Shown here piece by piece: positions 3,326 through 19,889 of a DNA stretch of 21,384 nt. The translations under genes were made by a program, and so were the position numbers. The stretch lies in contig JAGNNB010000007.1 of the NCBI GenBank assembly GCA_017990865.1, positions 1 to 21,384 of the forward strand. Direction: 5' to 3'. Source of the DNA: Lysobacteraceae bacterium. Lineage in GTDB: Bacteria > Pseudomonadota > Gammaproteobacteria > Xanthomonadales > Xanthomonadaceae. The notes under the pieces were generated by a model. The model saw nothing but the letters and a program-made list of their open reading frames with translations. It was not told where the DNA came from and did not search any database. Position 1 is the stretch's first letter. Each line of letters begins with the position of its first letter.

Positions 3326-4426
3326 ATGATTTTCGAACACGTCGATCAATACGGCCACGAGCAGGTCGTGTTCTGTCACAACAAAGACGCGGGGCTCAAA
3401 GCCATCATCGCGATCCACAACACGGTGCTCGGGCCGTCGCTGGGCGGCTTGCGGATGTGGCCGTACAAAACCGAGCAGGACGCGCTGAACGACGTGCTGC
3501 GTCTCTCGCGCGGCATGACCTACAAGAACGCGGTGGCCGGCTTGAACATCGGCGGCGGCAAGGCCGTGATCATCGGCGACCCGTCCAAAGACAAGTCCGA
3601 AGCGCTGTTCCGCGCCTTCGGTAAATTCGTCGATTCGCTGGGCGGCCGCTACATCACCGCCGAGGACGTCGGCATCGACGTTAACGACATGGAATACGTG
3701 TACCGCGAAACCGAATTCGTCACCGGCGTGCATCAAGTCCACGGCGGTTCGGGCGATCCCTCGCCGTTCACCGCCTACGGCACGTTGCAGGGCTTGATGG
3801 CCACGCTGAATCGCAAATACGGCGACGAGGAAGTCGGCCGCCACAGCTATGCGGTGCAGGGCCTCGGCCACGTCGGCATGGAGTTCGTGAAGCTGCTGAA
3901 GGAACGCGGCGCCAAGATTTTCGTCACCGACATCAACAAGACCCTGGTCGAGCAGGCGGTCGAAGACTACGGCGCCGAAGCGGTGGCACCTGAAGAGATC
4001 TACGACGTCAATGCCGACGTGTATTCGCCCTGCGCGCTGGGCGGTACGATCAACGAACTGACCTTGCCGCGTTTGAAAGCCAAGATCATCTGCGGCGCGG
4101 CCAACAACCAGCTCGCCAACAACGCCATCGGCGACGAAGTGCAGAAGCGCGGCATCGTCTACGCGCCCGACTACGCGGTGAACGCGGGCGGCGTGATGAA
4201 CGTGTCGCTGGAGATCGACGGCTACAACCGCGAACGCGCGATGCGCATGATGCGCACGATTTACCACAACCTCGGCCGCATCTACGAAATCTCCGATCGC
4301 GACAAGATCCCGACCTATCTGGCCGCGGACCGTCTGGCCGAAGAACGCATCGCCGCGATCGGCAAACTGAAACTGCCGATGGGCCGCTCCGCACCGCGTT
4401 TCCTCGGAAGAATGCGCGGGCATTGA
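3326..4426 (+). CDS. Leucine dehydrogenase (Glu/Leu/Phe/Val dehydrogenase family)
   Basis: The enzyme oxidatively deaminates leucine (and usually valine and isoleucine) with NAD+, giving 2-ketoisocaproate and ammonia. This is the entry step to leucine breakdown and to iso-branched fatty-acid primers. The 366-residue length is that of the family. The dimerisation/substrate domain includes LGGLRMWPY (about 39-47), K67 in GMTYKNA and the catalytic K79 in NIGGGKAVIIGDP. The nucleotide-binding domain has the Rossmann motif G179-L-G-H-V-G184 followed by D in VTDIN. APDYAVNAGGVMNV near the C-terminus is also typical. The frame is open upstream to 3107, but ATG 3326 with GGAG six bases before it gives the family's normal N-terminus (MIFEHVDQYGHEQV). 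Isovaleryl-CoA dehydrogenase, from the same pathway, follows on the same strand. Confidence 0.96.
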   Translation: MIFEHVDQYGHEQVVFCHNKDAGLKAIIAIHNTVLGPSLGGLRMWPYKTEQDALNDVLRLSRGMTYKNAVAGLNIGGGKAVIIGDPSKDKSEALFRAFGKFVDSLGGRYITAEDVGIDVNDMEYVYRETEFVTGVHQVHGGSGDPSPFTAYGTLQGLMATLNRKYGDEEVGRHSYAVQGLGHVGMEFVKLLKERGAKIFVTDINKTLVEQAVEDYGAEAVAPEEIYDVNADVYSPCALGGTINELTLPRLKAKIICGAANNQLANNAIGDEVQKRGIVYAPDYAVNAGGVMNVSLEIDGYNRERAMRMMRTIYHNLGRIYEISDRDKIPTYLAADRLAEERIAAIGKLKLPMGRSAPRFLGRMRGH

Positions 4427-4431
4427 GAGCC

Positions 4432-4568
4432 GGGAATCGGGAATGGGGAATCGGAAATCGTTGAAAGCGATTGAATCCGACTTCATTCCCGATCGCCGCG
4501 AAGGCCCAAAACCATGCTGATCTTTGTTTTTCGCTTTTGCTCTTCCCGATTCCCCATTCCCGATTCCC
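4432..4568. repeat. Inverted repeat of GGGAATC/GGGAATG heptamers (xanthomonad-type intergenic element)
   Basis: The 23 bases at 4432-4454 are perfectly complementary to 4546-4568, with a 91-base interval. Each arm is made of 7-bp units alternating GGGAATC and GGGAATG, and the right arm extends by about one more unit (to about 4575). The element starts six bases after the leucine dehydrogenase stop and ends within 20 bases of the isovaleryl-CoA dehydrogenase start. In RNA the arms could form a strong stem. I recall such heptamer repeats as frequent between genes of Lysobacter and Xanthomonas; on the minus strand they translate to spurious [12 protein letters not shown] peptides. Confidence 0.85.
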
Positions 4569-4586
4569 CACTCCCGGCCCCAACCC

Positions 4587-5744
4587 ATGCGCCCATTCCC
4601 CCTCGGTGAAGATATCGATGCCTTGCGCGATGCGGTGCGGCGTTTCGCCGAGGCCGAGATCGCGCCGCGCGCGGCGAAAATCGACGAAGAGAACGCCTTT
4701 CCGCAAGACCTGTGGTCGAAGCTGGGCGAGTTGGGCTTGCTCGGCATCACCGTGCCCGGCGAATACGGCGGCAGCGAGATGGGTTATCTGGCGCATCTGG
4801 TCGCGATGGAGGAAATCTCCCGCGCGTCCGGTTCGGTGGGTTTGAGCTACGGCGCGCACTCCAATCTGTGCGTGAGCAATCTGTACGCCAACGCCAACGA
4901 AGCGCAACGTCGGAAATACCTGCCGAAACTGTGCAGCGGCGAATGGAAGGGCGCGCTGGCGATGAGCGAACCGGGCGCGGGTTCGGACGTGGTCGGCTCG
5001 ATGTCCTGCCGCGCGGAGCTGAAGGGCGACCGCTGGATCGCCAACGGCAACAAGATGTGGATCACCAACGGCCCCGAAGCCGACGTCTTGATCGTCTACA
5101 TGCGCACCGCCAGCCGCGAGCTGGGTTCCAAGTGCATGACCGCCTTCATCGTCGAGCGCGGCATGCCCGGGTTTTCCACCGCGCAGAAGCTGGACAAACT
5201 CGGCATGCGCGGCAGCAACACCTGCGAACTAGTGTTCGAGAACTGCGAAATCCCGAAAGAGAACGTGCTGGGCGACACCAACAACGGCGTGCGCGTGTTG
5301 ATGAGCGGCTTGAACACCGAGCGTCTGGTGCTGACCGGCGGCCCGCTGGGGTTGATGCAAGCGGCGATGGACGTCGCCCTGCCCTACGTGCGCGAGCGCC
5401 GCCAGTTCGGCCAGGCCATCGGCACCTTCGGCATCATGCAAGCCAAGATCGCCGACATGTACACCGCGCTGCAGTCCAGTCGCGCCTTCGCCTATCAGGT
5501 CGCGCGCGATTACGATGCCGGCCACAAGTCGCGCATCGACGCCGCGAGCTGCTTGATGCACGCCTCGGAAGCCGCCGTGCAAGTGGCGCTGGAAGCCATT
5601 CAAGCGCTCGGCGGCAACGGCTACATCAACGAATACTCGACCGGCCGCATCCTGCGCGACGCCAAACTCTACGCGATCGGCGCCGGCACGAACGAAATCC
5701 GCCGCATGCTGATCGGCCGCGAGTTGTACAACGGCAATAGTTGA
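4587..5744 (+). CDS. Isovaleryl-CoA dehydrogenase (acyl-CoA dehydrogenase family)
   Basis: This FAD enzyme oxidises isovaleryl-CoA to 3-methylcrotonyl-CoA in leucine degradation and passes electrons to ETF. The 385-residue protein shows acyl-CoA dehydrogenase signature 1, [13 protein letters not shown], at 123-135, the WITNG segment near 158, and the C-terminal signature [22 protein letters not shown]. The catalytic base is E245 in [16 protein letters not shown] glutamate at this inner position is diagnostic of isovaleryl-CoA rather than short- or medium-chain dehydrogenases. The open frame begins at 4524, but its first 21 residues are translated repeat DNA, so ATG 4587 is preferred. It lacks a clear Shine-Dalgarno sequence (it is preceded by GGCCCCAACCC). 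The gene is 160 bases downstream of leucine dehydrogenase, with the inverted repeat between them. Confidence 0.94.
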
Positions 5745-5869: not shown

Positions 5870-8185
5870 ATGTCTCCTCGCCTTCCCGGGCGCGCGATGC
5901 GCTTGCTATCGCCCGCCGTTTTTCCATGCGCGTTATTCGCCGCTTTTTGCGCCGCACTGGCCGCATCACCTGTCGCGGCGCAATCGAAAACCCGAGAGAT
6001 CGGTTCGTTGCGCGTTGCGACCTTCAATACCTACCTGCTGTCGAATCAATTCCGCTGTATCGACCATCGTCTGGCATGGGACCCGATCACGACCACGGAT
6101 TGCTTCGCGAAAGGCGATCTGCTCGGCCTGACGCTCGACCCCGAAGAAATCGACGCTGCCGCAGACGCAATCGCCAACAGCATTCTCTCGATCGAGAACG
6201 AGGTCGATATCGTCGTCCTCAATGAAGTATGGGACGAACGCGCCCGAGATCGCCTGGTCTTGCGCCTGTCTGCGGTGTTTCCATCGCACGTCTCCAAGAT
6301 CGACCTCGGCGCATCGCTGCCGCTGTCGGTCGTGTTGCCGGAACTCGGCGTGCCGGACGCATCATTGCCGCATATCAGCGGCGAGGACAGCGGCCTGATG
6401 CTGTTCGCGAAACGCGATGTGGAATTTCTGCCGTTCGCACGGGAAGCACCTGTCATTCTGCCTAGCGCGATCGAGGGCAACGTCCCGCACGTGCGAGCCG
6501 AAACGCTGAACGTTCGAGCCATCAGCGTAGATGCGCTCGCAGCGAAGGCAGTGGCTGCCGTGCACGTGCGTCAGCGGATCGGCACGCAGAATATCCGCGC
6601 ATACATCGTCTTCACGCACATGCAGGCCGACGATGAGTTCGCGGCTGTCCGTGAGCGACAATTGCAACAGATACGAAACTTCATCGAAGCGGAAGTGATC
6701 GATCCGAATCTTGGCGTCAAAGACGAACTCAAGCGCGTATTGGTCTTCGGCGATCTCAACATCGATGGCATGCGTGGCGTCATACCGACCTCGCTCTCGA
6801 AGCCACCCGTCAAGGAGGAGTGGCAGAACCGGTTCGCCTCCCCCGACGCGAGCGAGCAACCCTTCGACGACCTGTGGGCGACCACAACATCGGAGAAGGA
6901 CTTTGGTCCCACTTACCTGCGGGGCAGCATCGACGGCAGCAGCCGCTACGACTACGCGCTCGGCGTGCGGCCGCAAGGCCAAGTCCCTGAGGGCCTCGGA
7001 TTCTGCGCGCAGCACATGAAGATCCGGCTGGAGGACTCCTATAGCGACCACAGCGCACTGGTCTCCGATTTCAACCAGCCGTTCCCGTTCTGCAGCCCGC
7101 GGACCGCGCTGCAGCCCGCGTTCGACGCGATGGTGCCGGGCAGTCACGACGGCATCGCCGATGCGATCCGGATCGACCGTCCCGGTGCGATGCAGTGGTT
7201 CCATTTCCCGCTCGAAAGCGCGGCCACGATCGACGTCGTGATTCCTGCGACAACGCCCGTACGCAGCACGATGTTCGCCGCCGACAACCTGTCGAGACCG
7301 ATCGCGCCCGTGGAGAACAGCGCACGCGTCTCGACCTATTCGGTGCCCGACGATTTCTTCATTCGTATCGAAGGCAAGCAGCGGAGCTTCGCGGGCGACT
7401 ACACGGTCTCGTTCCTGCGCCGAAAATGTCTGTCCGCCGATCGCCCTTGCGTATTGACGCCGACGCTGCCGCAGGAGGCGGTCTTCCCGGCGAACAACCT
7501 GCTCGGTAACGAAGACAGCGCGTGGTTCCGGATCGCCGTCACCGACTTGCCCGATGGCGCGAAGTCGCAGGGAATCTCGATCATGTTCCGCGGACTGAAT
7601 GCGAATCTGAAGCCGACGCTGATGCTGGAATCCGACCCGAACGCAGTCGTCGACTCGGACACGTTCAGCATCAACGGCCGCGGGACCGTGATCACCTTCT
7701 CGCCGACCGCCGCGGCCAACTATCTGGTCAAGGTCACGCGCGGCGCCGACAAGAGCGCCGAACAGCGCATCCGGGTCGGCTGGGATACCAACCTGACCGT
7801 GGTCAAGGTGCGGTCACTGGTGTGCGCCGACGAAACCAACGGCATCGCGGGCTCGGAAGCCGGCGAAGACGAGATCGCGCATTTCGTCGAGTACGACGGC
7901 ATCTCTCGGCGCAACCCTACAGGCGGCTGGCGCGATTTCGACTGCAACACGAGCAACCACGAACGCGCGGATTTCGCCCAGACGATGAAGGCGCTCAAAG
8001 CCGCATCGACGTGGCTGCAGGAACAGGACGACGGCCACGACGACAACGATTCGCCGCGACAATCGATTCCGACGTTGGGGTCCGGCCAGTTGGAGGCACG
8101 CTCCGAAACGGTCCGTTGGGAATTCGAGGGCGGCACCTATTTCCTGCGCTTCGACCGGCTGAAAGGCTCGTCCGGCCGCGAGTGA
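5870..8185 (+). CDS. Secreted endonuclease/exonuclease/phosphatase-fold protein, sphingomyelinase C-like, with beta-rich C-terminal half
   Basis: The 771-residue protein begins with a signal peptide (hydrophobic about 11-34, likely cleavage after SPVAA-Q near 38). Residues about 46-405 match the EEP (DNase I-like) fold: N53 in VATFNTYLL, metal-binding E119 in DIVVLNEVWDE, H250 in FTHMQAD, D295/N297 in VFGDLNIDG, D361 in SRYDYALG and the terminal catalytic D393-H394 in YSDHSALVSDF. The set is complete, so activity is likely. The HMQAD and VFGDLNID wording resembles bacterial sphingomyelinase/phospholipase C enzymes more than nucleases. Residues about 410-771 appear to be two beta-sandwich modules, each with an F-R-I/F-H-F core as in pre-peptidase C-terminal (PPC) domains, perhaps for surface or lipid binding. 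ATG 5870 has AAAGGA six bases upstream. The substrate is uncertain: sphingomyelin, other phospholipids or nucleic acid. Parts of the gene are poorer in G+C than its neighbours. Confidence 0.82.
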   Translation: MSPRLPGRAMRLLSPAVFPCALFAAFCAALAASPVAAQSKTREIGSLRVATFNTYLLSNQFRCIDHRLAWDPITTTDCFAKGDLLGLTLDPEEIDAAADAIANSILSIENEVDIVVLNEVWDERARDRLVLRLSAVFPSHVSKIDLGASLPLSVVLPELGVPDASLPHISGEDSGLMLFAKRDVEFLPFAREAPVILPSAIEGNVPHVRAETLNVRAISVDALAAKAVAAVHVRQRIGTQNIRAYIVFTHMQADDEFAAVRERQLQQIRNFIEAEVIDPNLGVKDELKRVLVFGDLNIDGMRGVIPTSLSKPPVKEEWQNRFASPDASEQPFDDLWATTTSEKDFGPTYLRGSIDGSSRYDYALGVRPQGQVPEGLGFCAQHMKIRLEDSYSDHSALVSDFNQPFPFCSPRTALQPAFDAMVPGSHDGIADAIRIDRPGAMQWFHFPLESAATIDVVIPATTPVRSTMFAADNLSRPIAPVENSARVSTYSVPDDFFIRIEGKQRSFAGDYTVSFLRRKCLSADRPCVLTPTLPQEAVFPANNLLGNEDSAWFRIAVTDLPDGAKSQGISIMFRGLNANLKPTLMLESDPNAVVDSDTFSINGRGTVITFSPTAAANYLVKVTRGADKSAEQRIRVGWDTNLTVVKVRSLVCADETNGIAGSEAGEDEIAHFVEYDGISRRNPTGGWRDFDCNTSNHERADFAQTMKALKAASTWLQEQDDGHDDNDSPRQSIPTLGSGQLEARSETVRWEFEGGTYFLRFDRLKGSSGRE

Positions 8186-8350: not shown

Positions 8351-9364
8351 ATGCCATCGATTCGCCCCCGCCCGCTCCGCATTCTCGCCACCGGCGTTTC
8401 CACGCCCGTGCGATGGGTCGATAGCCGCGAACTCGATGCGCGTCTCGGTCTCGCGCCGGGCACGGTGCTCGCTCGCACCGGCGTGTCGCGGCGCGGCGTG
8501 GAACCCGAGCGCAACGCCGCCGAAGTCTCCGCGCAGGCCGCGCACGCGGCGCTCGCACGCGCGGGGCTGGGTTTGGATGATATCGACGCAGTGGTCTGCG
8601 CCAACGCCAGTCACGATCAAGCCATGCCCTGCAACGCCGCGCTGCTGCATCGCGCGCTCGGTTTGCGGGGCGTGCCCGCTTTCGACATCAACGCCAGTTG
8701 CATCGGATTTTTGATGGCCCTGGATCTGGTCGCATCGCTGCTGGCGAGCGGGCGTTATCGCCGCGTCCTGGTGACCTCATGCGATCTCGCCTCGCGCGCG
8801 CTCAACGCGAAGGATCTGGATACGTTCGGCCTGTTCGGCGACGGCGCTGCCGCCGCGGTATTGGAAGCTGCGAACGAGAACGACATCGACACGGTCGGCC
8901 CGGCCCTGCTCGCCGCGCGCTTCGAAACCTGGTCCGAAGCCGCGCACGCCTGCGAAATTCCCGGCGGCGGCTCGCGACTCACGCCGGATCGCTATCCGGG
9001 CGATTACCGCGAGGTTTGCACCTTCCGCATGGACGGCAAGCGTTTGTATCGCGCGGTCGCCGATCGCTTCGATCCGTTCGTCGCGGCCTTGCTGGCCGAT
9101 GCGGATCTTTCTCTCGACGCGATCGATCGCGTGATTCCGCATCAAGCGTCCGCGTTGGGCATGGCGCACGTGTTCCGTCGTCTCGCGGTACCGCGCGAAC
9201 GCATCGAAGACATCTTCGCCGAGCACGGTAATCAAGTCTCCGCCTCACTGCCGACCGCGCTGCACGCCGCGCTCGACAGCGGCCGGCTGCGTGCGGGCGA
9301 CACCGCGCTGCTGATCGGCACGGCAGCGGGCGTCACCCTCGGCGGCGCGGTGCTGCGGCTGTGA
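8351..9364 (+). CDS. Beta-ketoacyl synthase III (FabH/OleA/PqsD-type) condensing enzyme
   Basis: Thiolase-fold enzymes of this family load an acyl group from CoA or ACP onto a cysteine and condense it with a second acyl or malonyl unit. The 337-residue protein has the full KAS III triad: C117 in INASCIGF, H264 in IPHQAS and N294 in EHGNQVSAS. The N-terminal ARTGVSRRGV region (about 41-50) and the C-terminal GTAAGVTLGGAVLRL are typical. It differs from housekeeping FabH in context: it heads a glycosyltransferase operon instead of a fab cluster. It is more like the secondary-metabolism KAS III enzymes (OleA, PqsD, DarB classes), but I cannot assign it to one of them. The frame is open from 8288; ATG 8351 was chosen because it gives the usual N-terminus (PLRILATGVSTP). 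Its stop overlaps the GTG of the next gene. Confidence 0.9.
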   Translation: MPSIRPRPLRILATGVSTPVRWVDSRELDARLGLAPGTVLARTGVSRRGVEPERNAAEVSAQAAHAALARAGLGLDDIDAVVCANASHDQAMPCNAALLHRALGLRGVPAFDINASCIGFLMALDLVASLLASGRYRRVLVTSCDLASRALNAKDLDTFGLFGDGAAAAVLEAANENDIDTVGPALLAARFETWSEAAHACEIPGGGSRLTPDRYPGDYREVCTFRMDGKRLYRAVADRFDPFVAALLADADLSLDAIDRVIPHQASALGMAHVFRRLAVPRERIEDIFAEHGNQVSASLPTALHAALDSGRLRAGDTALLIGTAAGVTLGGAVLRL

Positions 9365-10311
9365 GCGGAACGCCCGACGCAGTCGCGAGTATGCGCGCGA
9401 CCGCGCAAGTCTTTCCGCGTGTGCGACTGGATGTGCTGCGCGTCGGTCATTGTCGGCATCCCGAATGCATGGCGGTTCGCGGCGGCGCATGGCGCGTGGC
9501 GGAATTTCCGAATTTGGTTGGATTGATTCGTCATCCTGCTGCGGGCGCGATCTTGTTCGACACCGGCTACGCCGAGCATTTTTTCCGCGCCACCGACGGT
9601 TTTCCCGAACGTTTCTATCGCTGGGCGACGCCGGTCTCGCTGCCGCCGGAAGAATGCCTGCAAGCGCAGCTCGCGCGACGCGGCATCGCGATGCACGAAG
9701 TGCGCGCGGTGTTCGCATCGCATCTGCACGGTGACCATATCGCCGGTTTGCGCGATCTACCGAACGTCGCGATCTGGTGCGGCGGCGATGCGCTGCGCTT
9801 GCTGCGCGACGGCGGCCGTATGCGCCTGCTGCGTCGCGCGTATCTGCCGACGCTGCTGCCGCAGGATTTCGAACGCCGGCATCGTCGGATCGAAGACGCG
9901 CCGCAGCGCGCATTGCCCGCGCGGTGGTCCGCGCTCGGCGCGGGTCACGATCTGATCGGCGACGGCAGCCTCTGGGCGGTGCCGTTGCCGGGGCATGCGC
10001 GCGGGCATTACGGTCTGCTGATGCGGCACGACGACGACCGCGAGTGGCTGCTGGTCGGCGATGCCGTGTGGCGACAGGGGGAAATCCGCGAACATCGACT
10101 ACCCGCGTTGCCGACGCGTTTATTGATCGACGATGCCGCTGCGCATCTCGACACGCGCGCACGCCTGCATCGCGTGTTCGCCGAAGCGCTGCGCGCGAAC
10201 GACGACGGCATCGCGCTGTTGCCCTCGCACTGCCCGCACAGCTACCGCGCGCTGCCTGCATCGATGCGCGAGACCGACGGCGACGCGCTCACGGAGCGTA
10301 ACGGCGCATGA
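9361..10311 (+). CDS. Metallo-beta-lactamase-fold hydrolase
   Basis: The 316-residue protein has the complete MBL metal-binding set: H121-L-H123-G-D125-H126, H212 in PLPGHARGH, D234 in LLVGDAVW and H290 in LPSHCPH. The layout resembles the lactonase/thioesterase branch (AHL lactonases, PqsE), so it should hydrolyse a thioester, lactone or similar ester. In this operon it may release or edit the product of the KAS III enzyme, as PqsE does in quinolone biosynthesis; that is inference by analogy. No signal peptide is seen. The GTG at 9361 forms a GTGA overlap with the stop of the KAS III gene, matching the other junctions of the operon. An in-frame ATG at 9391 is an alternative start and neither has a strong Shine-Dalgarno sequence. 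Confidence 0.88.
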   Translation: MSGTPDAVASMRATAQVFPRVRLDVLRVGHCRHPECMAVRGGAWRVAEFPNLVGLIRHPAAGAILFDTGYAEHFFRATDGFPERFYRWATPVSLPPEECLQAQLARRGIAMHEVRAVFASHLHGDHIAGLRDLPNVAIWCGGDALRLLRDGGRMRLLRRAYLPTLLPQDFERRHRRIEDAPQRALPARWSALGAGHDLIGDGSLWAVPLPGHARGHYGLLMRHDDDREWLLVGDAVWRQGEIREHRLPALPTRLLIDDAAAHLDTRARLHRVFAEALRANDDGIALLPSHCPHSYRALPASMRETDGDALTERNGA

Positions 10312-11273
10312 AGATTCTGATCACCGGCGCATCGGGCTTCGTCGGCGGACGATTTCTGCAGCGTTTTCGCGAGCGCGACGATGTCGAGCTTCTCGGCGTC
10401 GGACGACGTGCGCTCGACCTGCCCGACTATCGCTCGATCGATCTCTCGCAGCCGCAGGCGTTGGACGAGACCTTGAGCGCATTCGAACCCGATGTTCTCA
10501 TCCACGCTGCGGCTTTGGCTTCGCCGTTCGCGCCGCGACGCGAATATCTGCTTCACAACGTCGAAGCGACGAGACATACGCTGGAAAGCTGTCGCGCGCA
10601 CGGCGCGCCGAAATTCGTCTATATCTCGTCGAGTTCGGTGCACTACCGTCCTGAGGATCAGTTTGGCATTCGCGAAGACGACCCGATCGGCCCGACGTTC
10701 GCGAACGTGTACGCCGAAACCAAGGCCGCGGGCGAAACGCTGGTGCGCGATTACGCAGGCGCATGGACGATCCTGCGCCCGCGCGCGGTGTTCGGCCCTG
10801 GCGATACCGTGCTGTTCCCGCGCCTGCTGACGGCGGCGAAGCGCGGAAAATTGCCGCAGATCGTGCGCGATGGGCCGCCAGCGATGGGCGATCTGATCGG
10901 CGTGGACGCATTGACCGATTACATGCTGCGCGCCGCGCAACGACCGGAGGCAATCGGCGCGTTCAATCTCAGTCACGGCGAACCCGTCGCGATGCAGGAT
11001 TTCCTCGCCGAGGTTTTTCGTCGTTTGGATCTGCCGCCGCCCACCCGTCGCGTCGGCTATCGCACCGCGCATGCCGCCGCCTGCGCGGCGGAATGCCTAT
11101 GGACACTGCTGCCGCTGCGCGGCGAGCCGCCGGTCACGCGGTTCGGCGTGGATGTGCTGTGCTTCAGCAAAACCTTCGATATCGCCAAGGCGCGCGCGAT
11201 TCTTGGCGAACCTTCGCAAACGCTGGCGCAGGCGATCGACGCATTCGTCGTCTGGCAGCGCACGCAACCATGA
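10308..11273 (+). CDS. NAD(P)-dependent epimerase/dehydratase (extended SDR, 3-beta-HSD/OleD-like)
   Basis: The 321-residue protein begins directly with the Rossmann motif G7-A-S-G10-F-V-G13. It has the active-site serines in VYISSSSVH (108-110) and the Y135-x-x-x-K139 pair in VYAETKAAGE. LRPRAVFGPGD and DLIGVDALTDYMLRAA are typical of the extended SDR family that includes 3-beta-hydroxysteroid dehydrogenases and OleD. It could reduce the keto group of a beta-keto product made by the KAS III enzyme, giving a hydroxyl for glycosylation, or it could act on a nucleotide sugar. The 3-beta-HSD-like wording favours the first, but this is inference. ATG 10308 overlaps the preceding stop (ATGA). Confidence 0.88.
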   Translation: MKILITGASGFVGGRFLQRFRERDDVELLGVGRRALDLPDYRSIDLSQPQALDETLSAFEPDVLIHAAALASPFAPRREYLLHNVEATRHTLESCRAHGAPKFVYISSSSVHYRPEDQFGIREDDPIGPTFANVYAETKAAGETLVRDYAGAWTILRPRAVFGPGDTVLFPRLLTAAKRGKLPQIVRDGPPAMGDLIGVDALTDYMLRAAQRPEAIGAFNLSHGEPVAMQDFLAEVFRRLDLPPPTRRVGYRTAHAAACAAECLWTLLPLRGEPPVTRFGVDVLCFSKTFDIAKARAILGEPSQTLAQAIDAFVVWQRTQP

Positions 11274-11321
11274 GCCCGCGACGATGAACATTGAGGCGAA
11301 CGCGAGATGAGCGCGACGATG
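11270..11321 (+). other. Two overlapping micro-ORFs and a duplicated start region at the SDR-glycosyltransferase junction
   Basis: The 33-base gap between these genes is filled by two tiny frames linked by ATGA overlaps: ATG 11270 to TGA 11287 (MSPRR), then ATG 11284 to TGA 11310 (MNIEANAR). The last stop overlaps the glycosyltransferase ATG at 11307. The bases at 11270-11286 also closely match 11307-11321: ATGAGC, then CC in the first copy only, then GCGACGATG. This suggests that a short duplication of the original gene start moved the functional start downstream. The micro-ORFs may carry translational coupling across the gap or may be a by-product of the duplication. Confidence 0.55.
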
Positions 11322-12581
11322 TCGGAGTGGTTTCAGTTATTGCATGATTTCTCGTGGTGGCCCGCATGCGCGGCCGCGCTGTGGCCCGCGTGGGAACTGT
11401 GGCGCCAAACCCGCGCATGGCGTGCGCTGCGCGCGATGCCGGCGGCGCCCGTGCGCGCCGCGACTGCGACGCCCGCCACGCGCGATGCCGATGCCCCAGA
11501 CCATGCCTTGTCGTTCGCTGGCGTCGATGTGCTGCTGCCGATCCGCAGCGGCGATGTCGGTCTCGGCGAAGCGCTCGCGGCATCTCTGCGCGCGCTCGGC
11601 GCACGCGGTGCGCGTTTGCATTGGCTGATCGATGAAGACGATATCGTCGCCGGCAATGTCGTTCGCTCGTTGTTGAAGAAGCATTCGTCGCTCGCGCCGC
11701 ATGTGGCGGTCAGCATGCATCCTTCGTGTCCCTCCGGCGTCAACCCGAAACTGTTCAAACTCGACCGCGCGCTCGCCCATTGCGCGGGCGACACGGTGCT
11801 GATTCTGGACGACGACGCGCATCTGCCGCCGGCGACGCTCGAGGCCATGTTGGCCGCGCTCGGCGGCGACCACGACGCATCGCCTGTCGTCGCGACCGCC
11901 TTGCCGGCGTACCTGCCCGCGCACGGGCTCGGCGCGCGATTGCTGGCGCGCTTCGTCAACGACAACGCCGCGCTGACGTATCTGCCGCCGCGACTCACGG
12001 GCGGCGCACCGACGCTCAACGGCATGTGCTGGGCGATGCGACGGGATGCGTTGCTGCGCATCGGCGGTTTCGCGCCGTGGTTGCGCCATCTCACCGACGA
12101 TCTGGCGATGGCGCAGGCCGTGCTGCGCGCGGGCGGTCGCATCGAACAGCGCAACGAGCCGGTGTGGATGCGCACCGCATTGCCAGATTTTTCCGCGTAT
12201 CGCCGACAAATGCATCGCTGGATGCTGTTCGCGCTGTTGCTGTTGCGCAGTCAGCCGTGGAGGATGCGTCTGCGCATTCTGTTCTGGCACGGCCTGCCGA
12301 TGTTGCTGCCGCTGTTCGCGCTGGTCGTGTTCGCATATGCGCCCTCGTGGCTCGGCGCCGCGGCGCTCGCGCTCGGCGCGACTGTGCATGTTCTGGGGCG
12401 CAAGCGCCTGCAGCGCGCCTGTGCAGGCGCAGCGACCGCGAAAGCCGAACCGTTGCTGTCGCTGGCTTCGGCTTTGCTGTTGCCCGTGCATGCGCTGCAT
12501 GCGATGGTCGATCGACGCATCCAATGGCGGACGCATCGGTATCGCGTCTACGCCAACGACCGCTTCGTGGATTGCGAATGA
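11307..12581 (+). CDS. GT21/GT2-type membrane glycosyltransferase (ceramide glucosyltransferase-like)
   Basis: The 424-residue protein shows the processive-type GT-A signature of ceramide glucosyltransferases: D168-D-D170 in LILDDDAHLPP, D264-D265 in HLTDDLAMAQ, and Q301-x-x-R304-W305 in YRRQMHRWML. The C-terminus has hydrophobic segments at about 325-345 and 347-364, another at about 383-402, and ends with IQWRTHRYRV, a pattern seen in the ceramide glucosyltransferase family. An N-terminal hydrophobic stretch lies at about 16-30. It should transfer a sugar from a nucleotide donor to a lipid acceptor at the inner membrane face. The acceptor may be the lipid made by the upstream enzymes rather than ceramide. 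ATG 11307 has GAGG at 11293-11296; ATG 11319 is a possible alternative. Its stop overlaps the next start by ATGA. Confidence 0.87.
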   Translation: MSATMSEWFQLLHDFSWWPACAAALWPAWELWRQTRAWRALRAMPAAPVRAATATPATRDADAPDHALSFAGVDVLLPIRSGDVGLGEALAASLRALGARGARLHWLIDEDDIVAGNVVRSLLKKHSSLAPHVAVSMHPSCPSGVNPKLFKLDRALAHCAGDTVLILDDDAHLPPATLEAMLAALGGDHDASPVVATALPAYLPAHGLGARLLARFVNDNAALTYLPPRLTGGAPTLNGMCWAMRRDALLRIGGFAPWLRHLTDDLAMAQAVLRAGGRIEQRNEPVWMRTALPDFSAYRRQMHRWMLFALLLLRSQPWRMRLRILFWHGLPMLLPLFALVVFAYAPSWLGAAALALGATVHVLGRKRLQRACAGAATAKAEPLLSLASALLLPVHALHAMVDRRIQWRTHRYRVYANDRFVDCE

Positions 12582-13273
12582 GCGAACCGTCGTCCGAATC
12601 GTCGGTGCCGTCGCGCGCGGAAGCGCCGCGCATCGCGTTTCTGACCGGCCGCAGCGACCCCGACCGTTGCGCGTTGTCGCCGCTGCAGCGGGCTGTGCTG
12701 GATGCGCTGGCAACCGATCTGCTGGGTATGAATGCGGCGGACCTGCATCTTGATCCGCTGAATTTTCCGTGGTGCGAGAGCATCTACGAGAGAGTCGGCG
12801 AAAATGACTGCGAAACGGACCGCGCCTGGCGCGACACGCCGCTGCTCCGCGCGAGCCTCGCCAACGGCCGGCAGTATCTTGCGGCGCGGCGCGGCGATTT
12901 CGCCGATCTGCCGCAAACCGTCGTCGCGCAAGCGCGCGAGTGTCTGCGCAAGCCGCCGCGTTCGCTGCTGCTGGTCGGCAGTTGCGGTTTGAGCTTGCTC
13001 GATGCGCTGATCGCGCCGTTCGACGACGCGCAACGCGCGCGTCTGCGCATCGTGGCGTACGGCGGCGTCGGCCCGCGTTGGCCGCGCGGCGTCGAAGGGG
13101 CGCAACTGCGCGGTCGTCGCGACCGTATCGCCGCATGGTTCGGTCCGAACGACGGCCCATCGCCGCGCATCATCGATTGCGGCCATATGGATTATCTCGA
13201 GCGCAGTGCCGCGCGCGACGCGGTGCTGGATGCCGTGCGCACGTTATGGCCTTGGTTGCGAGGCGACGCATGA
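12578..13273 (+). CDS. Uncharacterised protein of a glycosyltransferase operon, weakly alpha/beta-hydrolase-like
   Basis: I do not recognise the family of this 231-residue protein. Visible features are RIAFLTGRSDPDRCALSPLQ near the N-terminus (18-37), then a beta-strand/turn SLLLVGSCGLSLLDAL (129-144) with S135, and a C-terminal RIIDCGHMDYLERSAARDAVLDAVRTLW stretch with D200 and H203. Strand-turn-helix around a serine, followed late in the protein by GHMDYL and a helix, is reminiscent of the nucleophile elbow and catalytic histidine of alpha/beta hydrolases, although the elbow is GSCG and not a strict GxSxG. No signal peptide or membrane segment is seen. The gene is real: ATGA overlaps join it on both sides to glycosyltransferase genes. 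The much longer open frame upstream in the same phase is the shadow of the GT21-like gene. A hydrolase or esterase role in the pathway is a guess. Confidence 0.8.
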   Translation: MSEPSSESSVPSRAEAPRIAFLTGRSDPDRCALSPLQRAVLDALATDLLGMNAADLHLDPLNFPWCESIYERVGENDCETDRAWRDTPLLRASLANGRQYLAARRGDFADLPQTVVAQARECLRKPPRSLLLVGSCGLSLLDALIAPFDDAQRARLRIVAYGGVGPRWPRGVEGAQLRGRRDRIAAWFGPNDGPSPRIIDCGHMDYLERSAARDAVLDAVRTLWPWLRGDA

Positions 13274-14568
13274 ACGCGACCGATGCGTTTGAGCGAACCG
13301 CGCATGCGAGCGACACGAAGCCGCGCATCGATCTGTTGGCGCCACCGTTCGCCGGGCACTTGCATCCGATCCTCGCCATCGGCCGCGCTTTGCGCGAGAT
13401 CGCCGATGTCGAAGTGGTCAGCACCGAAGGCGCGCAAGCGCGTATCCGCGCCGCGAGTTTGCGCGGCGTCGCGCTGGTGCCCGGTGCCGATGTCGCGCTG
13501 CGCGCGCTCACCGATCCGCCGTACGCCGTCGGCGCGAACCCGCTGCGTCTGCACGCGCAATTCCAACAGGCGATGCGCCTGCAGGCCGCGTTCGCCGCCG
13601 CGCTCGATGCGCGTTACCGCACGCAGCGCGCCGATTTGTTGATCGCCGATTTCACGCTGATCGTCGCCGGACCCATCGCCGCGCGCTACGGCATGCCGTG
13701 GTGGACCAGCCATCCCTCGCCCTGCGTGATCGAAGCGCCGGGCGGGCCACCGGCGTATCTCGGCGGATGGACGCCGGGCCGCAGCGCGTTCGGTCGCGCG
13801 CGCGATGCGTGCGCGGCGCAAGCGGTGCGAGCGTTCAAACGCGGTGTGCATCGGCTGCATCGACGCGCGCTGTCCGAACTCGGGCTCGATCGCGTCTATC
13901 GCGCCGACGGCAGTGAAACGGCGTATTCGTCGGAATGCGTGCTCGCGCTGGGCCTGCGCGAACTCGAATTCGAGCGGCGTTGGCCCGACTCCGTGCGCTT
14001 CGTCGGGCCGATGCTGTGGAGCCCGCCGGATCGCGGCGCGCCGCCGCCCGCGCCGGGCGATGCGCCGCAAGTGTTGGCGACGTTGGGCACGCATTTGGGT
14101 TGGGCGAAAGACGGCCTCGCGCAACGTTTGCGCGATATCGCACAGCGCAATACGCAATGGCGACTGCATTTCAGCGACGGCCGACACGAGACCGACGCAC
14201 CGATGGGCGCGGAAACGGCGACGCACGACGCGCTGCATCGTCATTCCTGGGTGGACTATCCGAGCTGGATTCCTACGATGTCGGCCGTGCTGCATCACGG
14301 CGGCGCGGGCGTGATGTGGGAATGTCTGCGCGCGGGCGTTCCGGCCCTGGTGCTTCCGCAGGACTACGACCAATTCGATCATGCCGCGCGCTTGGAGGCG
14401 GCGGGCGTCGCGATTCGCTTGCGCGATCCGCGCGAGATCGAGCCCGCGCTCGAACGCGTGTTGAGCGGAAATGCCGGTTTACGGCCCGATCGCTTCGTCG
14501 AATCGTTGCGCCCCGGTGCGGCCGAGGCGCACGTGGTCGCCGCTGTGCGTCGGCGATTTGGTTTGTAA
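13270..14568 (+). CDS. GT1-family glycosyltransferase (UDPGT/MGT-like)
   Basis: The 432-residue protein has the GT-B plan of family 1 glycosyltransferases. The N-terminal acceptor domain starts with IDLLAPPFAGHLHPILAIG, where H30 is the likely catalytic base. The C-terminal donor domain carries the UDPGT/MGT signature: H342-H-G-G345-x-G347, P363 and D367-Q368 in VLPQDYDQFDHA. Members transfer sugars to small hydrophobic aglycones such as macrolides, sterols, carotenoids or rhamnolipid precursors. It is probably cytosolic or membrane-peripheral. As the last gene of the six-gene operon it would add a sugar to the product or to the first sugar placed by the GT21-like enzyme. ATG 13270 overlaps the previous stop (ATGA). 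It ends 29 bases before the end of the convergent minus-strand gene. Confidence 0.9.
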   Translation: MNATDAFERTAHASDTKPRIDLLAPPFAGHLHPILAIGRALREIADVEVVSTEGAQARIRAASLRGVALVPGADVALRALTDPPYAVGANPLRLHAQFQQAMRLQAAFAAALDARYRTQRADLLIADFTLIVAGPIAARYGMPWWTSHPSPCVIEAPGGPPAYLGGWTPGRSAFGRARDACAAQAVRAFKRGVHRLHRRALSELGLDRVYRADGSETAYSSECVLALGLRELEFERRWPDSVRFVGPMLWSPPDRGAPPPAPGDAPQVLATLGTHLGWAKDGLAQRLRDIAQRNTQWRLHFSDGRHETDAPMGAETATHDALHRHSWVDYPSWIPTMSAVLHHGGAGVMWECLRAGVPALVLPQDYDQFDHAARLEAAGVAIRLRDPREIEPALERVLSGNAGLRPDRFVESLRPGAAEAHVVAAVRRRFGL

Positions 14569-14597: not shown

Positions 14598-15734
14598 TCA
14601 AAGTTGCCGCCGCACCATCATCGGAAATACGATGCCGCGCAACACGGATGCGAGCGTATTCACGGCTGCGCGCCGGAAAACAGGCAAGTGCGCCGTGTAC
14701 ACCGCCATCGACTCGACAACCGCCCTCGCGCCACGCGCGCGCTTGAAATCCGCAGCCCCGGCCGAGCCGTTGAAACGCAGGCCGGCCTCCATCGCAAGGC
14801 TGCGCGCGAGCAAAGACGCGATTCGATACAAGCCGAGCGACCGCGCGCATGACGTGTCGTAACCGAGGATCGGCGCCGTCGCGACGCCGTCCCGCACAAA
14901 AATCCCGCCGACCGCCAAAATGCGCCCATCGCCAGCGCGCGCAACGCGGTAGCGCACCGCACCTGCCGCATGCGTCATGCGAATATAGTCCGGCGTGAAC
15001 CGCGGGTTCAGCGACGAATATTTGTCGATGTAAAGCTGACGATAGAGATCCGCGATCCGCTTCGCGTCGTCCGCAGACAACATCGTCGGCGTCTCGGCAT
15101 GCAATCCGCTTCGACGCAACGTTTTGAAATCGTTGCGAACGCTCGTTCGCGGCAGCCAGTCGCGCGAAAGATCGTCGACGACCCAGATTTGTCGACTCGG
15201 CAACAACACCCAGCCATCCGCGTTCAACGCGGACGCCAGCTCGGGCGCTGACCACGTATCGATCGAGCGGATCGCGATCAAATGGTCGGGGTATGTTTCG
15301 ATCAAATATTCGCGTATCGACGTGAGATTCTCACCCCGCCAATCGCCATGCAGATTCGTGGACAGCAGCCAGTTGTCAAGATGCACGATGCGATTGATCC
15401 TGGCGGCGCGAAGCAGCGCATCGAACGGCCGGATCGCCATGGACAACAGCGGTCGCAACGCGCCGGTATCGACCAACTCCAATTCCTCGCGCGCATACAG
15501 CACATAGGCGCTATGCGGCTGGCATACGTAACTGTCGCCGATGTCGCCATCGTCGATGGTGAGCGGAAAAACCCGATCGCCCATCCGCAACGCGCGCCAG
15601 TGCGTGCGCACGTTCGCGACCATCCTTTCGACGCCGGCGCCCGCGATGCCATCGATGTAGCGACGCTCCATGTCGCGATCTTCCGGCCAAGCATCCGCGG
15701 GAGGATCGAGCGGATCGAACACCAACGGCGTCAT
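14598..15734 (-). CDS. GNAT-superfamily acyltransferase (FemAB/CelD-like)
   Basis: The 378-residue protein has a distinctive C-terminal GNAT-like half (about 198-350). This includes VRNDFKTLRRSGL, DLYRQLYIDKYSSLNPRF, AVGGIFVRDGVATAPILGYD and the ending NGSAGAADFKRARGA, in which a G-x-x-x-F-K pattern close to the end is typical of CelD/FemX-like (BioF2-like) acyltransferases. The N-terminal about 195 residues do not match anything I can name. The family transfers acyl or aminoacyl groups to amines. The start ATG (15734-15732) overlaps the stop of the upstream ATP-grasp gene as ATGA, so the two are translationally coupled. An in-frame ATG at 15755 is an alternative. Base composition is lower in G+C than the facing operon (30 of 60 bases in 15301-15360), which hints at acquisition. 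The substrate is unknown. Confidence 0.75.
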   Translation of the reverse strand: MTPLVFDPLDPPADAWPEDRDMERRYIDGIAGAGVERMVANVRTHWRALRMGDRVFPLTIDDGDIGDSYVCQPHSAYVLYAREELELVDTGALRPLLSMAIRPFDALLRAARINRIVHLDNWLLSTNLHGDWRGENLTSIREYLIETYPDHLIAIRSIDTWSAPELASALNADGWVLLPSRQIWVVDDLSRDWLPRTSVRNDFKTLRRSGLHAETPTMLSADDAKRIADLYRQLYIDKYSSLNPRFTPDYIRMTHAAGAVRYRVARAGDGRILAVGGIFVRDGVATAPILGYDTSCARSLGLYRIASLLARSLAMEAGLRFNGSAGAADFKRARGARAVVESMAVYTAHLPVFRRAAVNTLASVLRGIVFPMMVRRQL

Positions 15735-16912
15735 GTCAACGCCTCGCCGTTCCATTCGATGTCCGCAGTCGAACCGCGTACCGCATCGCCGCTGCGCAGC
15801 AGATACCCGACTGTGTCGAGTAAAGCGCCGAGCGCTGGCAGCCGATCGCCGGGGCGCGTGAGCGCGTCGCGGCCGCGTCGCATGTCGGCCGCGAAATCGC
15901 GCCAGCGGCCATCGCGCAATGCGCGCGGCACGCCGAACGACAGCATCGCCGGCGCGAGATAACGCAACCGCGGTGGCGCGTGACATGGCGGGCCTTCGCC
16001 GAGCAGTGCGTCGGCCAGCGCCGCGTCGCCGTCGAACAGATGTACGCCGCTGACGGCGCGCGGATTGCATTCGATCGGCAGCGCTCTGCCGTCCGCCGTC
16101 AGAATGATGTCCAGACTGAGCTGACCGGTCAGGTTCGTCGCGGCAGCGATCGTCGCCGCAATGTCCACCGCTTGCGGGCATTCGATGGTCTCGAACGCAT
16201 AAGAGGCCGCCTGCCCCATGCGCCACACCGGACGGTACGCGGCGCTGGCGACGATCCGACCGTTGCGCGAGGCGGTCCAGAGGCATATTTCTTCGCCCGC
16301 GACGTATTCTTGCGCCGCCCAGCGCCGGCCAGGCAAGACTTCTACCGCGCGCAGCCGATCGAGCGTCGGTCGCAATAAGGTCGCAACGCCGAAACGCGAG
16401 AATTCCGGCTTGAATACCAATGCTTCCGAGGGTAGCGGCAATTCATCGCAATCTTCGCTGCACGACAACGCCCAAGTCTCCGGCACCGAAATGCCGAGAG
16501 AGCGCGCGAACGCGGGAAATTCGATTTTCGAATGCAGCGTCCGCAACAAGGCGAGAGGCGGAGCGAAGACGCGATCCGCGAAACCGCCAACGTCCGCGGC
16601 GGCGGCGAGATGAAACACATCCTCGCAGGTGGGCAGAATCATCGCGGGCCGCATCGCATCGACCAACGCGCGCATCGCGGTGCGGTATTCGGCGCCATGC
16701 CCGCACGGCGCAGGCAGTCGCAGAAGACGTCCGCGCCCCACCCGCGACCAGCGTGCCACGAACGATGGCACCGAATCCGCAAGCCAGACGGCATGTCCCG
16801 ATGCCGCGAAAGCTCGCGCCAAATCGATCGCGACAGGCGCACGCGCGCCTGTGACGATGATCGGCGGCCGGTTCGAACCCAGCGGAAGCGATGGCGTACT
16901 CACGCATCGCAT
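15731..16912 (-). CDS. ATP-grasp domain ligase (carbamoyl-phosphate synthetase L-like)
   Basis: The 393-residue protein is organised as an ATP-grasp enzyme: an N-terminal alpha/beta pre-domain (PPIIVTGARAPVAIDLARAF, about 16-35), the linker KIEFPAFARSLGISVPET (129-146), ATP-binding K168 in ALVFKPEFSRFG, Q201-E-Y in AAQEYVAGEE, D268 in QLSLDIIL, and the metal ligands E281 and N283 in LPIECNPRAVSGVHLF. Such enzymes activate a carboxylate with ATP and join it to an amine or thiol. It is coupled to a GNAT acyltransferase, so the pair may attach and cap an amino-acid or acyl group. The start ATG at 16912 has no clear Shine-Dalgarno sequence, so the N-terminus is uncertain by a few residues. The upstream 149 bases should hold a promoter, or the gene is read from the membrane-protein gene upstream. 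Confidence 0.85.
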   Translation of the reverse strand: MRCVSTPSLPLGSNRPPIIVTGARAPVAIDLARAFAASGHAVWLADSVPSFVARWSRVGRGRLLRLPAPCGHGAEYRTAMRALVDAMRPAMILPTCEDVFHLAAAADVGGFADRVFAPPLALLRTLHSKIEFPAFARSLGISVPETWALSCSEDCDELPLPSEALVFKPEFSRFGVATLLRPTLDRLRAVEVLPGRRWAAQEYVAGEEICLWTASRNGRIVASAAYRPVWRMGQAASYAFETIECPQAVDIAATIAAATNLTGQLSLDIILTADGRALPIECNPRAVSGVHLFDGDAALADALLGEGPPCHAPPRLRYLAPAMLSFGVPRALRDGRWRDFAADMRRGRDALTRPGDRLPALGALLDTVGYLLRSGDAVRGSTADIEWNGEALT

Positions 16913-17061: not shown

Positions 17062-17769
17062 TCACGGCTTACTCAACGCCACAGCACCGGCACCCGGCTT
17101 CGGCATGTACTTGCGGTTGAGCCACACGCCGACGAACACCGAAAGCGTCAGCGGCAGGAACCACGCGATCAAGCCGTACCACGCCGGCGGTTGAATCCCC
17201 GCGGCTTGAATCACGCGATTCAGGCCGATCGCGAGAAACGCGATGTGCGTGGCCACGCCGCAGCCGATCATGGCGCCGAAATGTTCGCGCATCCACCAAC
17301 GGGTCTCGACGAGCGGCCGCGCGCGGCGCGTCAGCATCTGCACGCCGTTGAAAATGCCCACCGCGCTGAAGCCCATCAGCAAGACGCTCCCGCTGCGATA
17401 GCCTACCGCGCACACCGTCGCCGCAGCGACGAGATTGAACACCGCCACCGCCGCGTATGCGCCGCCGCGGAAACTCGCTTGATCGCGTTTGCGTTTCACC
17501 GCGCGCCAGCCCAACCACACGCCGGTCGCGGTGATGATGGATAGATACACCAGGAAAACGGCGTTCACAACGCTTCCGCGCAGGCCGATAATCGCCGACA
17601 TCGGCAGCGCGGTGACGATGATCCCGATCATCGCGATCATGTACGTCTTGCCGACGCGCACATGCAGCGGGGAGCCTTTTTTCGCCGCGGCCGCCAGCCA
17701 GAACGTCGCCAGCGCGACGAGGCCGACGAGGCCGTGCGCGGAAAGCAGAATGCGGTAGATCGTGTCCAT
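17062..17769 (-). CDS. DUF2306-like multi-pass membrane protein
   Basis: The 235-residue protein is very hydrophobic, with about seven predicted membrane segments (roughly 4-24, 40-61, 66-86, 103-123, 127-145, 165-184, 196-219). Conserved-looking polar residues sit at the membrane edge: H12 in LLSAHGLVG, and LHVRVGKTYM (34-43), a His/Gly/Lys pattern like that of DUF2306 proteins. Function in that family is not established. The frame extends to 17823, but ATG 17769 was chosen because GGAG lies seven bases upstream on the minus strand and the first membrane segment then starts normally. The gene is divergent from a two-component system, with a 143-base shared control region that contains an operator-like array, so it may be the regulated target or the sensing partner. 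Confidence 0.78.
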   Translation of the reverse strand: MDTIYRILLSAHGLVGLVALATFWLAAAAKKGSPLHVRVGKTYMIAMIGIIVTALPMSAIIGLRGSVVNAVFLVYLSIITATGVWLGWRAVKRKRDQASFRGGAYAAVAVFNLVAAATVCAVGYRSGSVLLMGFSAVGIFNGVQMLTRRARPLVETRWWMREHFGAMIGCGVATHIAFLAIGLNRVIQAAGIQPPAWYGLIAWFLPLTLSVFVGVWLNRKYMPKPGAGAVALSKP

Positions 17770-17833
17770 GTCGGGCTCCGAAAGAGTGAGCACAGTCTCC
17801 GGCGATCCCACGTCGCGGCCCACCTGCCTCTCG

Positions 17834-17861
17834 TCACCCGCAGGGGGTGAGAAAAGTCACC
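17834..17861. promoter_or_regulatory. Three TCACC/GGTGA half-sites between divergent genes, probable operator
   Basis: The sequence contains TCACCC (17834-17839), GGGTGA (17845-17850) and TCACC (17857-17861). The first two form an inverted repeat with a 5-base spacer, and the second and third form GGTGA-GAAAAG-TCACC with a 6-base spacer. Half-site spacing of 11-12 bases puts them on one face of the DNA. The array lies 64 bases from the start of the membrane-protein gene and 51 bases from the histidine kinase start. It would suit a dimeric LuxR/NarL-type regulator such as the one encoded at 19091. It could also form a small RNA hairpin. Confidence 0.5.
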
Positions 17862-17912
17862 TTTCGCTCGCGAAGCCTTTCGCCGCGCGCGCGGCGCTGC
17901 CATGCTGGCCCC

Positions 17913-19094
17913 ATGAACAATGCCGACGTTCTGCCGCCGCCGCACTTGCAATCGCACGCAGGCACGCTGCGCCAGCGCATCTTCACGCCGCTGAATATCG
18001 CCGCCTACGTCACCTGGGTGGCGGTCGTCAGCGGCGTGGTCGATCGCGCGCGACTGCGGGCCGGTGCGCCGACCGAGTGGATCGGCGCGCTCGCGCTGCT
18101 GGCGATGTTGGCGCTGTTCGTGCGCTGCGCCACGCGCACGCCGCAGTCCGACGCGCGCGGCATGCCGCTGATGATCGTGCTGCAGGGCGCGCTGATCGTG
18201 CTGGCCGAATCGATGCTGCACGGCGGGCAAACCGCGGTGTTGCTGATCATCGTCGCCAGTCAACTCGTGCTGGCGCTGCCGATGCGCATCGCGATCGCGT
18301 ATTTGGTCATGGCGAACGCCGCCATCGCCTGGCTGTGGATCGAGCGCAGCGGCCAGATCGGCGCGACGTTGCAGTGGATGGTGCCGGTGATCGGTTTTCA
18401 AGCGTTCGCAGCCTTGACCGGACATTTCGCCGGCAGCAGCGAACGCGCGCGCGCGCATTTGGCGCAGGTCAACGCCGAATTGTTGGCGACGCGCCGGTTG
18501 CTGGAAGAATCCGCGCGCGCCGGCGAACGCCTCAAACTCTCGCGCGAATTGCACGACGTCGCCGGGCACAGCCTGACCGCGCTCAAACTCAACCTCGCCC
18601 GCCTCGCGCGCGACCCGGCTTTGGCCGATCGCGAAGAAATCCGCACGTCCACCGCTTTGGCGGACGATTTATTGGCGCAGATCCGGCAAGTGGTCGGCGC
18701 CCTCCGCGCGCACGACGGCGTCGATCTGCGCGCCGCGTTCGAGGCCTTGGCGCGACCGATGCCGGGCGTGCGCATCGGTATCGATATCGAAGACGGCTTG
18801 CGCGTCGACGACATCGATCAGGCCGAGACGCTGCTGCGCTGCGCGCAGGAAGCGATCACCAATGCGTTGCGTCATGGACGGGCGGGTCGCATCGATCTGC
18901 GCCTGCGCCGCGAACCCGACGGATTGACGATGACCGTCGAGAACGACGGCCTCGCGCCCGCGACCATCGCACCCGGCAACGGCCTGATCGGCATGCGCGA
19001 ACGCGTGACCGCGCTAGGCGGCGAGTTGGCATTGACGCCGACCCCACCGCGCGGCGTTCGTGTGCGCATGCGCTTACCGGAGCGCGCGCCATGA
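17913..19094 (+). CDS. Sensor histidine kinase, NarL/DesK type (HisKA_3)
   Basis: The 393-residue protein has about five or six membrane segments in residues 27-170, then a short coiled-coil linker (about 178-205). The HisKA_3 dimerisation domain follows, with phospho-acceptor H214 in LSRELHDVAGHSLTALKLNL. The HATPase domain has the N-box EAITNALRHG (N317) and the G-box GNGLIGMRERVTALGG (355-370). There is no large extracytoplasmic loop, so it probably senses a signal within or at the membrane, as DesK does. The frame opens at 17847, but ATG 17913 was chosen because the earlier residues are Arg-rich and lie in the control region. Its stop overlaps the response regulator start by ATGA. Partner: the response regulator at 19091. 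Confidence 0.92.
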   Translation: MNNADVLPPPHLQSHAGTLRQRIFTPLNIAAYVTWVAVVSGVVDRARLRAGAPTEWIGALALLAMLALFVRCATRTPQSDARGMPLMIVLQGALIVLAESMLHGGQTAVLLIIVASQLVLALPMRIAIAYLVMANAAIAWLWIERSGQIGATLQWMVPVIGFQAFAALTGHFAGSSERARAHLAQVNAELLATRRLLEESARAGERLKLSRELHDVAGHSLTALKLNLARLARDPALADREEIRTSTALADDLLAQIRQVVGALRAHDGVDLRAAFEALARPMPGVRIGIDIEDGLRVDDIDQAETLLRCAQEAITNALRHGRAGRIDLRLRREPDGLTMTVENDGLAPATIAPGNGLIGMRERVTALGGELALTPTPPRGVRVRMRLPERAP

Positions 19095-19762: not shown

Positions 19763-19815
19763 GGCCTGTCCGAGCCACCCGCACGTCGCCTACGCGCCGC
19801 ACCGGCCCATAAACC

Positions 19816-19848: not shown

Positions 19849-19889
19849 CTTACCCAACCCGCGCCGCCGCAGCGGACCCGACGAGCGGT

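Follow-up and report, generated by a model that had tools for sequence, protein, structure and literature searches.

A six-gene operon and its enzymes

We have analyzed a stretch of 21,384 nucleotides (the window), positions 1 to 21,384 of the forward strand of contig JAGNNB010000007.1 from the Lysobacteraceae bacterium assembly GCA_017990865.1, which carries an operon of six genes between positions 8351 and 14568. All six open reading frames (ORFs) were confirmed in the window and all of them lie on the plus strand. Gene 1 (8351..9364, 337 amino acids) codes for a 3-oxoacyl-acyl carrier protein synthase III (KAS III) of the GumO clade with a C117-H264-N294 triad, gene 2 (9361..10311, 316 amino acids) for a metallo-hydrolase of the metallo-beta-lactamase (MBL) fold corresponding to GumP, and gene 3 (10308..11273, 321 amino acids) for an extended short-chain dehydrogenase/reductase (SDR) for which the nearest NCBIfam model is OleD, below its cut-off. 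They are followed by a GT21/HpnI-like glycosyltransferase with two hydrophobic segments at its C-terminus (gene 4, 11307..12581, 424 amino acids), a protein of the alpha/beta-hydrolase fold with an S135-D182-H203 triad (gene 5, 12578..13273, 231 amino acids) and a GT1-type glycosyltransferase (gene 6, 13270..14568, 432 amino acids). The original prediction, made from the letters of this DNA, had described six genes on one strand joined by GTGA or ATGA overlaps at four of five junctions, and this is what the ORF coordinates give: consecutive genes overlap by four bases at 9361 (GTGA) and at 10308, 12578 and 13270 (ATGA), and genes 3 and 4 are separated by a gap of 33 bases (11274–11306). Scans of the window for promoters and terminators performed no better than on shuffled sequences (1 vs. 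0.8 and 7 vs. 5.9, respectively).

The condensing enzyme belongs to the Pfam families ACP_syn_III and ACP_syn_III_C, and its C117, H264 and N294 were invariant in 22 of 22 aligned rows (the window and the related loci). Complete catalytic motifs had been foreseen in this enzyme as well as in the MBL, SDR and GT21-type ones, and the residues are indeed invariant across the 21–23 rows aligned in each case. Gene 1 scored 193.7 on the FabH model TIGR00747, below the cut-off of 292.1, and each of the 10 genomes searched has, at another place, a FabH that exceeds this curated cut-off, which the KAS III of the operon does not reach. In a tree of 50 KAS III proteins, which has several long branches, the operon enzymes and those of the related cores described below formed one clade of 33 rows (support 99/95) apart from the FabH and OleA rows. 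Placement within housekeeping FabH had been named beforehand as an outcome that would speak against the prediction; the tree put the clade outside it. The score, the separate FabH of these genomes and the tree position together rule out FabH. OleA was ruled out too, by its position in the tree, by a score of 116 (cut-off 285) on PRK09258, which we take to be the OleA-type model, and by the lack of the catalytic glutamate of OleA, Glu117. At this position, placed by eye via the OleA of the window's own genome, the residue is M, I or L in 19 of 19. Of a KAS III of the OleA/PqsD/DarB kind, as originally proposed, what stands is the location outside FabH and the relationship to PqsD (E 6e-48); the identity with OleA does not. 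Among solved structures the enzyme comes closest to MxnB (E 4e-98) and CorB (E 1e-95), which join two chains in alpha-pyrone antibiotics.

Gene 2 belongs to the Lactamase_B family, with H121, H123, D125, H126, H212 and D234 invariant in 22 of 22 aligned rows and H290 kept in 21 of 21, the remaining row of this alignment having a gap there. The predicted MBL hydrolase is confirmed in its family and its complete set of metal residues; as to the parallel drawn with PqsE, this protein is not among the 50 fold matches listed, which is not evidence of difference, and among those listed the closest are acyl-homoserine lactonases. It is most improbable, however, that the operon is a catabolic or protective unit opening or glycosylating foreign lactones (quorum quenching or antibiotic inactivation). 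A condensing enzyme with an intact active site, standing in first place and kept with the rest, would have no use in such a unit, and gene 2 stays below the equivalog cut-offs for lactonases (62.2 on the acyl-homoserine lactonase (AttM) model NF045700, cut-off 390). Gene 3 belongs to the Pfam family Epimerase, with S107, S108, Y135 and K139 invariant in 23 of 23 aligned rows. The OleD-like SDR of the original prediction holds in that it is an extended SDR with OleD (NF042422) as best NCBIfam model, but its score of 151.7 falls short of the OleD cut-off of 580. The combination of a KAS III with an OleD-like SDR is shared with the OleABCD pathway of head-to-head hydrocarbons; the operon, in contrast, has neither the OleA-type glutamate nor OleB or OleC, sugar genes are found instead, and the genome's own OleA is located elsewhere.

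The sugar genes could be assigned as predicted. Gene 4 exceeded the cut-off of Glyco_transf_21 (111.1 bits vs. 21.7) and has the aspartate/(Q)xxRW signature, with D83, D109, D112, D168–170, D264–265 and R304–W305 in 23 of 23 rows and Q301 in 16 of 23. It thus resembles HpnI and the ceramide glucosyltransferases, one of which is the only solved relative found, but it scored 81.3 on the HpnI model TIGR03472 (cut-off 310) and the operon contains no hopanoid genes. Gene 6 is of the GT1/UDPGT kind by its matches to EryCIII-like_C and UDPGT, and its PDB relatives include antibiotic glycosyltransferases. The product of gene 5 had been left as unknown, and it does lack a family match in Pfam and NCBIfam and any sequence relative among the solved structures (best E 0.4), but an alpha/beta-hydrolase fold with a Ser-Asp-His triad could be recognized in it. 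A cysteine nucleophile, C136, was considered and rejected, since four Nocardioides-type rows have I at this position and S135 is present in 27 of 27.

Conservation of the unit and its relation to gumO and gumP

A profile of gene 5, the most distinctive of the six, retrieved 18 loci from the collection of named genomes. Fifteen of them have all six genes in unchanged order on a single strand (the contig ends within gene 6 in L011, L017 and L024, and gene 1 is incomplete in L024). The remaining three are two short contigs with genes 5 and 6 (L013 and L020) and a locus of Stenotrophomonas cyclobalanopsidis (L021) with genes 3–6 only. The carriers include Lysobacter and Lysobacterales metagenome-assembled genomes (MAGs), Luteimonas, Tahibacter, Leminorella, a Rhodoferax MAG, an Acidobacteria MAG, three Nocardioides and Pimelobacter simplex, so that the six-gene order spans Pseudomonadota, Acidobacteriota and Actinomycetota. 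Six further loci (L029–L034) have the full order as well. Such a recurrence is not chance, and the co-occurrence in related genomes that had been proposed as a check of the prediction is present. Within the Lysobacteraceae, all 14 genomes entered as carriers of gene 5 had a GumO-type KAS III, and sister genomes devoid of gene 5 had only the FabH match (3 of 3). The patchy spread, together with the Actinomycetota and Acidobacteriota rows that stand among Pseudomonadota rows in the trees, fits horizontal spread.

Five of the further loci (L030–L034), which we take to be from Xanthomonas because of their gum genes, connect the operon to a known region. In all five, the operon is located directly behind gumM-gumN as judged by clustering. 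In L030 the genes before it were identified by Pfam as coding for a polysaccharide flippase, GumK, a pyruvyl transferase, a WecG-type enzyme and a TraB/PrgY/gumN protein; the counterparts in the other four were assigned by clustering, and the gumN family was confirmed by Pfam in the three tested. This location identifies gene 1 as gumO and gene 2 as gumP. The available passages of the literature place gumO (3-oxoacyl-ACP synthase) and gumP (metal-dependent hydrolase) directly behind gumN, report no demonstrated role of either in xanthan, and describe their absence from several xanthomonads pathogenic to monocots, taken as a possible clue to host range (PMC2585010, PMC4468381, PMC5554336). The four genes behind gumP are not mentioned in these passages. 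Position and order of the two families coincide, and genes 3–6 come next in the five loci fetched; however, what those passages treat as loose accessory genes of the gum cluster is here the head of a six-gene unit found also without gum neighbours. Among 35 Xanthomonas-type genomes, gene 1 was found in 31 and gene 5 in 30, and in 29 of the 30 having both the two are on one strand and 2927–2969 bases apart. Decayed copies of the operon were seen in L049 (G292) and L050 (G219), both of Xanthomonas type, one with a broken gene 1 and the other genes shortened or missing, the other with a remnant of gene 1 only.

The location behind gumM-gumN could suggest a role of gumO, gumP and the genes that follow in the synthesis of xanthan or another exopolysaccharide. 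We judge this very unlikely, since only those five among the 25 loci compared (window included) have gum-type clusters, the window itself having no gum genes beside the operon, and since the cited passages give neither a demonstrated role nor a constant presence in the genus. The two genes have long been listed as accessory to xanthan, and to find them heading a conserved unit that is not tied to gum makes their role directly testable.

A precursor core and a glyco module

The operon is made of two modules, a precursor core (KAS III and MBL, often with an OleD-like SDR and a ligase related to F390 synthetase) and a glyco module composed of the SDR, the ceramide-glucosyltransferase-like enzyme, the hydrolase and the GT1 enzyme. 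Seven of the 15 named loci of complete order have the ligase, an adenylate-forming enzyme of the TIGR02304 type, as an extra gene that separates gene 2 from gene 3; three such proteins put to family search were all over the cut-off. No F390-type ligase was found in the nine operon genomes searched, including the window's own (86.5% complete). We have found the core also without sugar genes. In 10 plasmid places, picked from the best matches to gene 1, KAS III, SDR and MBL genes were close together in nine and the ligase was present in eight. Searching the plasmids with gene 4 gave a single distant, partial match and so no sign, in this search, of a plasmid-borne glyco module. In E. coli the core is part of an operon of seven genes coding for KAS III, SDR, MBL, F390-type ligase, PAP2, a fatty-acid hydroxylase and a fatty-acid desaturase (L035, L036 and L055), located between narI and tyrT or purU and matched in 672 of 5426 complete genomes of the species; a search of the open-access literature for it gave nothing. 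These TIGR02304 cassettes share with the window the KAS III clade, the MBL family and the kind of SDR, but the window has neither the ligase nor the cassette's own SDR and has the GT21-type enzyme, the hydrolase and the GT1 enzyme in addition.

Two genomes illustrate how the modules come together or apart. In S. cyclobalanopsidis both are present at two separate places, the core (KAS III, SDR and MBL) in L088 and the glyco module in L021. Leminorella combines the glyco module with a core of the E. coli type: its KAS III groups with that of E. coli (100/100) though its genes 3–6 are of the glyco-module type. Here genes 1 and 2 are separated by a second OleD-like SDR. Other genes accompany the core in some plasmids. 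In the GumO-type core of Rhizobium plasmid pMK-2 (L131), a DUF3419 gene separates the ligase gene from the GNAT gene; we take this family to include the betaine-lipid enzyme BtaA. In plasmids of Paracoccus (L053) and Ketogulonicigenium (L132), genes for a sulfotransferase and a TetR regulator lie divergently to the GumO-type core.

Just past gene 6 the window contains a two-gene unit on the minus strand that was absent from the original prediction. A GNAT-type (Acetyltransf_6-like) protein (14598..15734, 378 amino acids) is convergent with gene 6, with 29 bases between the stops, and overlaps by ATGA with the gene of an ATP-grasp-like protein (15731..16912, 393 amino acids). Relatives of both adjoin the core in Paraburkholderia, and one or both do in Roseateles, Rhizobium and Pontibacillus. 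In Paenibacillus urinalis KAS III, ATP-grasp, SDR, MBL, ligase and GNAT genes form a single run, and Shinella zoogloeoides is similar. Relatives of the GNAT gene were found in 12 of 72,556 plasmid records, with a GumO-type KAS III 3.2–4.5 kb away in 10 of the 12 (three Shinella and four Rhizobium among them), and relatives of the ATP-grasp gene in 14 records, with a GumO-type KAS III within 5.3 kb in seven.

Product of the operon and its surroundings in the window

On balance we lean towards the reading that the operon makes a glycosylated, acyl-derived lipid, by an undescribed pathway that has spread horizontally. The KAS III would condense an acyl thioester with a second thioester, and malonyl extension seems likelier than a head-to-head reaction because the enzyme has Cys-His-Asn and lacks the OleA-type glutamate. 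The MBL enzyme would open the product (a thioester or lactone) to give a free beta-keto acid, the SDR would reduce the keto group to a hydroxyl, and the membrane-bound GT21-like enzyme would set a first sugar on this lipid hydroxyl; the serine hydrolase may then move or remove an acyl group and the GT1 enzyme add a second sugar. The F390-type ligase, where it is present in the operon or core, probably activates a free acid; in the window genome, where none was seen, the acyl group would come from ordinary fatty-acid metabolism. The ATP-grasp and GNAT pair of the window strain probably attaches a part through an amide bond. The route from condensation through release and reduction to glycosylation agrees with the original prediction, which is partly supported: gene set, motifs and conservation speak for it, and the chemistry remains putative. 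Nor could the gene set be matched to a named pathway, as had been stated: the open-access literature, to which our search extended, holds no account of the operon or of the genes behind gumP. Although every enzyme family is a known one, neither their combination nor the position of gumO and gumP within it seems to have been described before.

The nearest solved relatives of gene 1 point in a different direction, together with PqsD, the antibiotic glycosyltransferases related to gene 6 and the ligase of eight of the ten plasmid cores viewed. They would suit a secreted small molecule, glycosylated and pyrone-, tetronate- or quinolone-like, that serves as a signal or antibiotic instead of a membrane lipid, with KAS III, ligase and MBL working like PqsD, PqsA and PqsE or like MxnB and CorB. 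In the ligase-bearing cores an adenylating enzyme, a KAS III and an MBL protein do stand together as in the Pseudomonas quinolone signal route, but the gene 2 product has acyl-homoserine lactonases as the closest among its listed fold matches and glycosyltransferases are present here. We regard a secreted product as rather unlikely, given that gene 4 belongs to a class that acts on membrane lipids and has hydrophobic C-terminal segments, that no exporter or polyketide synthase is found in the operon, and that the fatty-acid hydroxylase, desaturase and PAP2 genes of the E. coli core point to a membrane lipid.

The glycosylated membrane lipid could be one member of a larger group. As a tentative possibility, which we hold to be doubtful, the core (KAS III, SDR, MBL, F390-type ligase, ATP-grasp and GNAT) might make the backbone of an undescribed class of ceramide-like polar membrane lipids in several phyla, with the genes joined to it setting head group or tail: sugars in the window (GT21, hydrolase and GT1), a BtaA-type (DUF3419) gene in Rhizobium, and PAP2, hydroxylase and desaturase in E. 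coli. The names gumO and gumP would be a remnant of this in Xanthomonas. A test of the role of gumO and gumP would also provide a first functional hypothesis for the related core of those 672 E. coli genomes and of plasmids of Pseudomonadota and Bacillota.

Several observations weigh against an acyl-derived glycolipid made by a conserved, horizontally spread unit. The product and each chemical step are inferred from the genes. The sugar and the acceptor are not readable from the glycosyltransferase profiles, and no acyl-carrier protein, transporter or regulator was seen in the operon. The lactonase neighbours of gene 2 mean that the second step may act on a lactone and not on a thioester. Distribution is another point: within the window's family gene 5 occurs in 46 of 395 genomes (one match doubtful, G909, and two partial, G852 and G292), in 5 of 198 Nocardioidaceae and in 2 of 369 genomes class-wide, so the six-gene unit is rare outside favoured genera. 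G909 has a GumO-type KAS III although its gene 5 match is the doubtful one (E 4.4e-4), and gene 1 is absent from 4 of the 35 Xanthomonas-type genomes, with one remnant and one decayed copy. The KAS III of the Pseudomonas Leaf58 plasmid has no compact core and another plasmid KAS III has no ligase. Of 25 genomes searched, two had the ATP-grasp and GNAT pair, namely that of the window and that of a near relative (weaker ATP-grasp matches in five more were counted as other ATP-grasp proteins). The pair is thus not needed for the six-gene unit; it is an accessory of this unit, yet a frequent partner of the core. Two Deinococcus plasmids (L139 and L140) have the pair with no KAS III annotated within the about 7 kb shown. 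Finally, the long branches of the trees limit what can be claimed about routes of transfer.

Other genes surround the operon in the window. Upstream, at 3107–5744, there are genes for an amino-acid dehydrogenase of the ELFV type and for an acyl-CoA dehydrogenase; counterparts of these are found in L011, L012 and L014–L016, which are Lysobacter-type loci. An ORF of 771 amino acids with no Pfam family (5870–8185) comes directly before gene 1. Beyond the ATP-grasp gene, at 17762–21173, are found a histidine kinase and a LuxR-type response regulator, followed by a thiolase.

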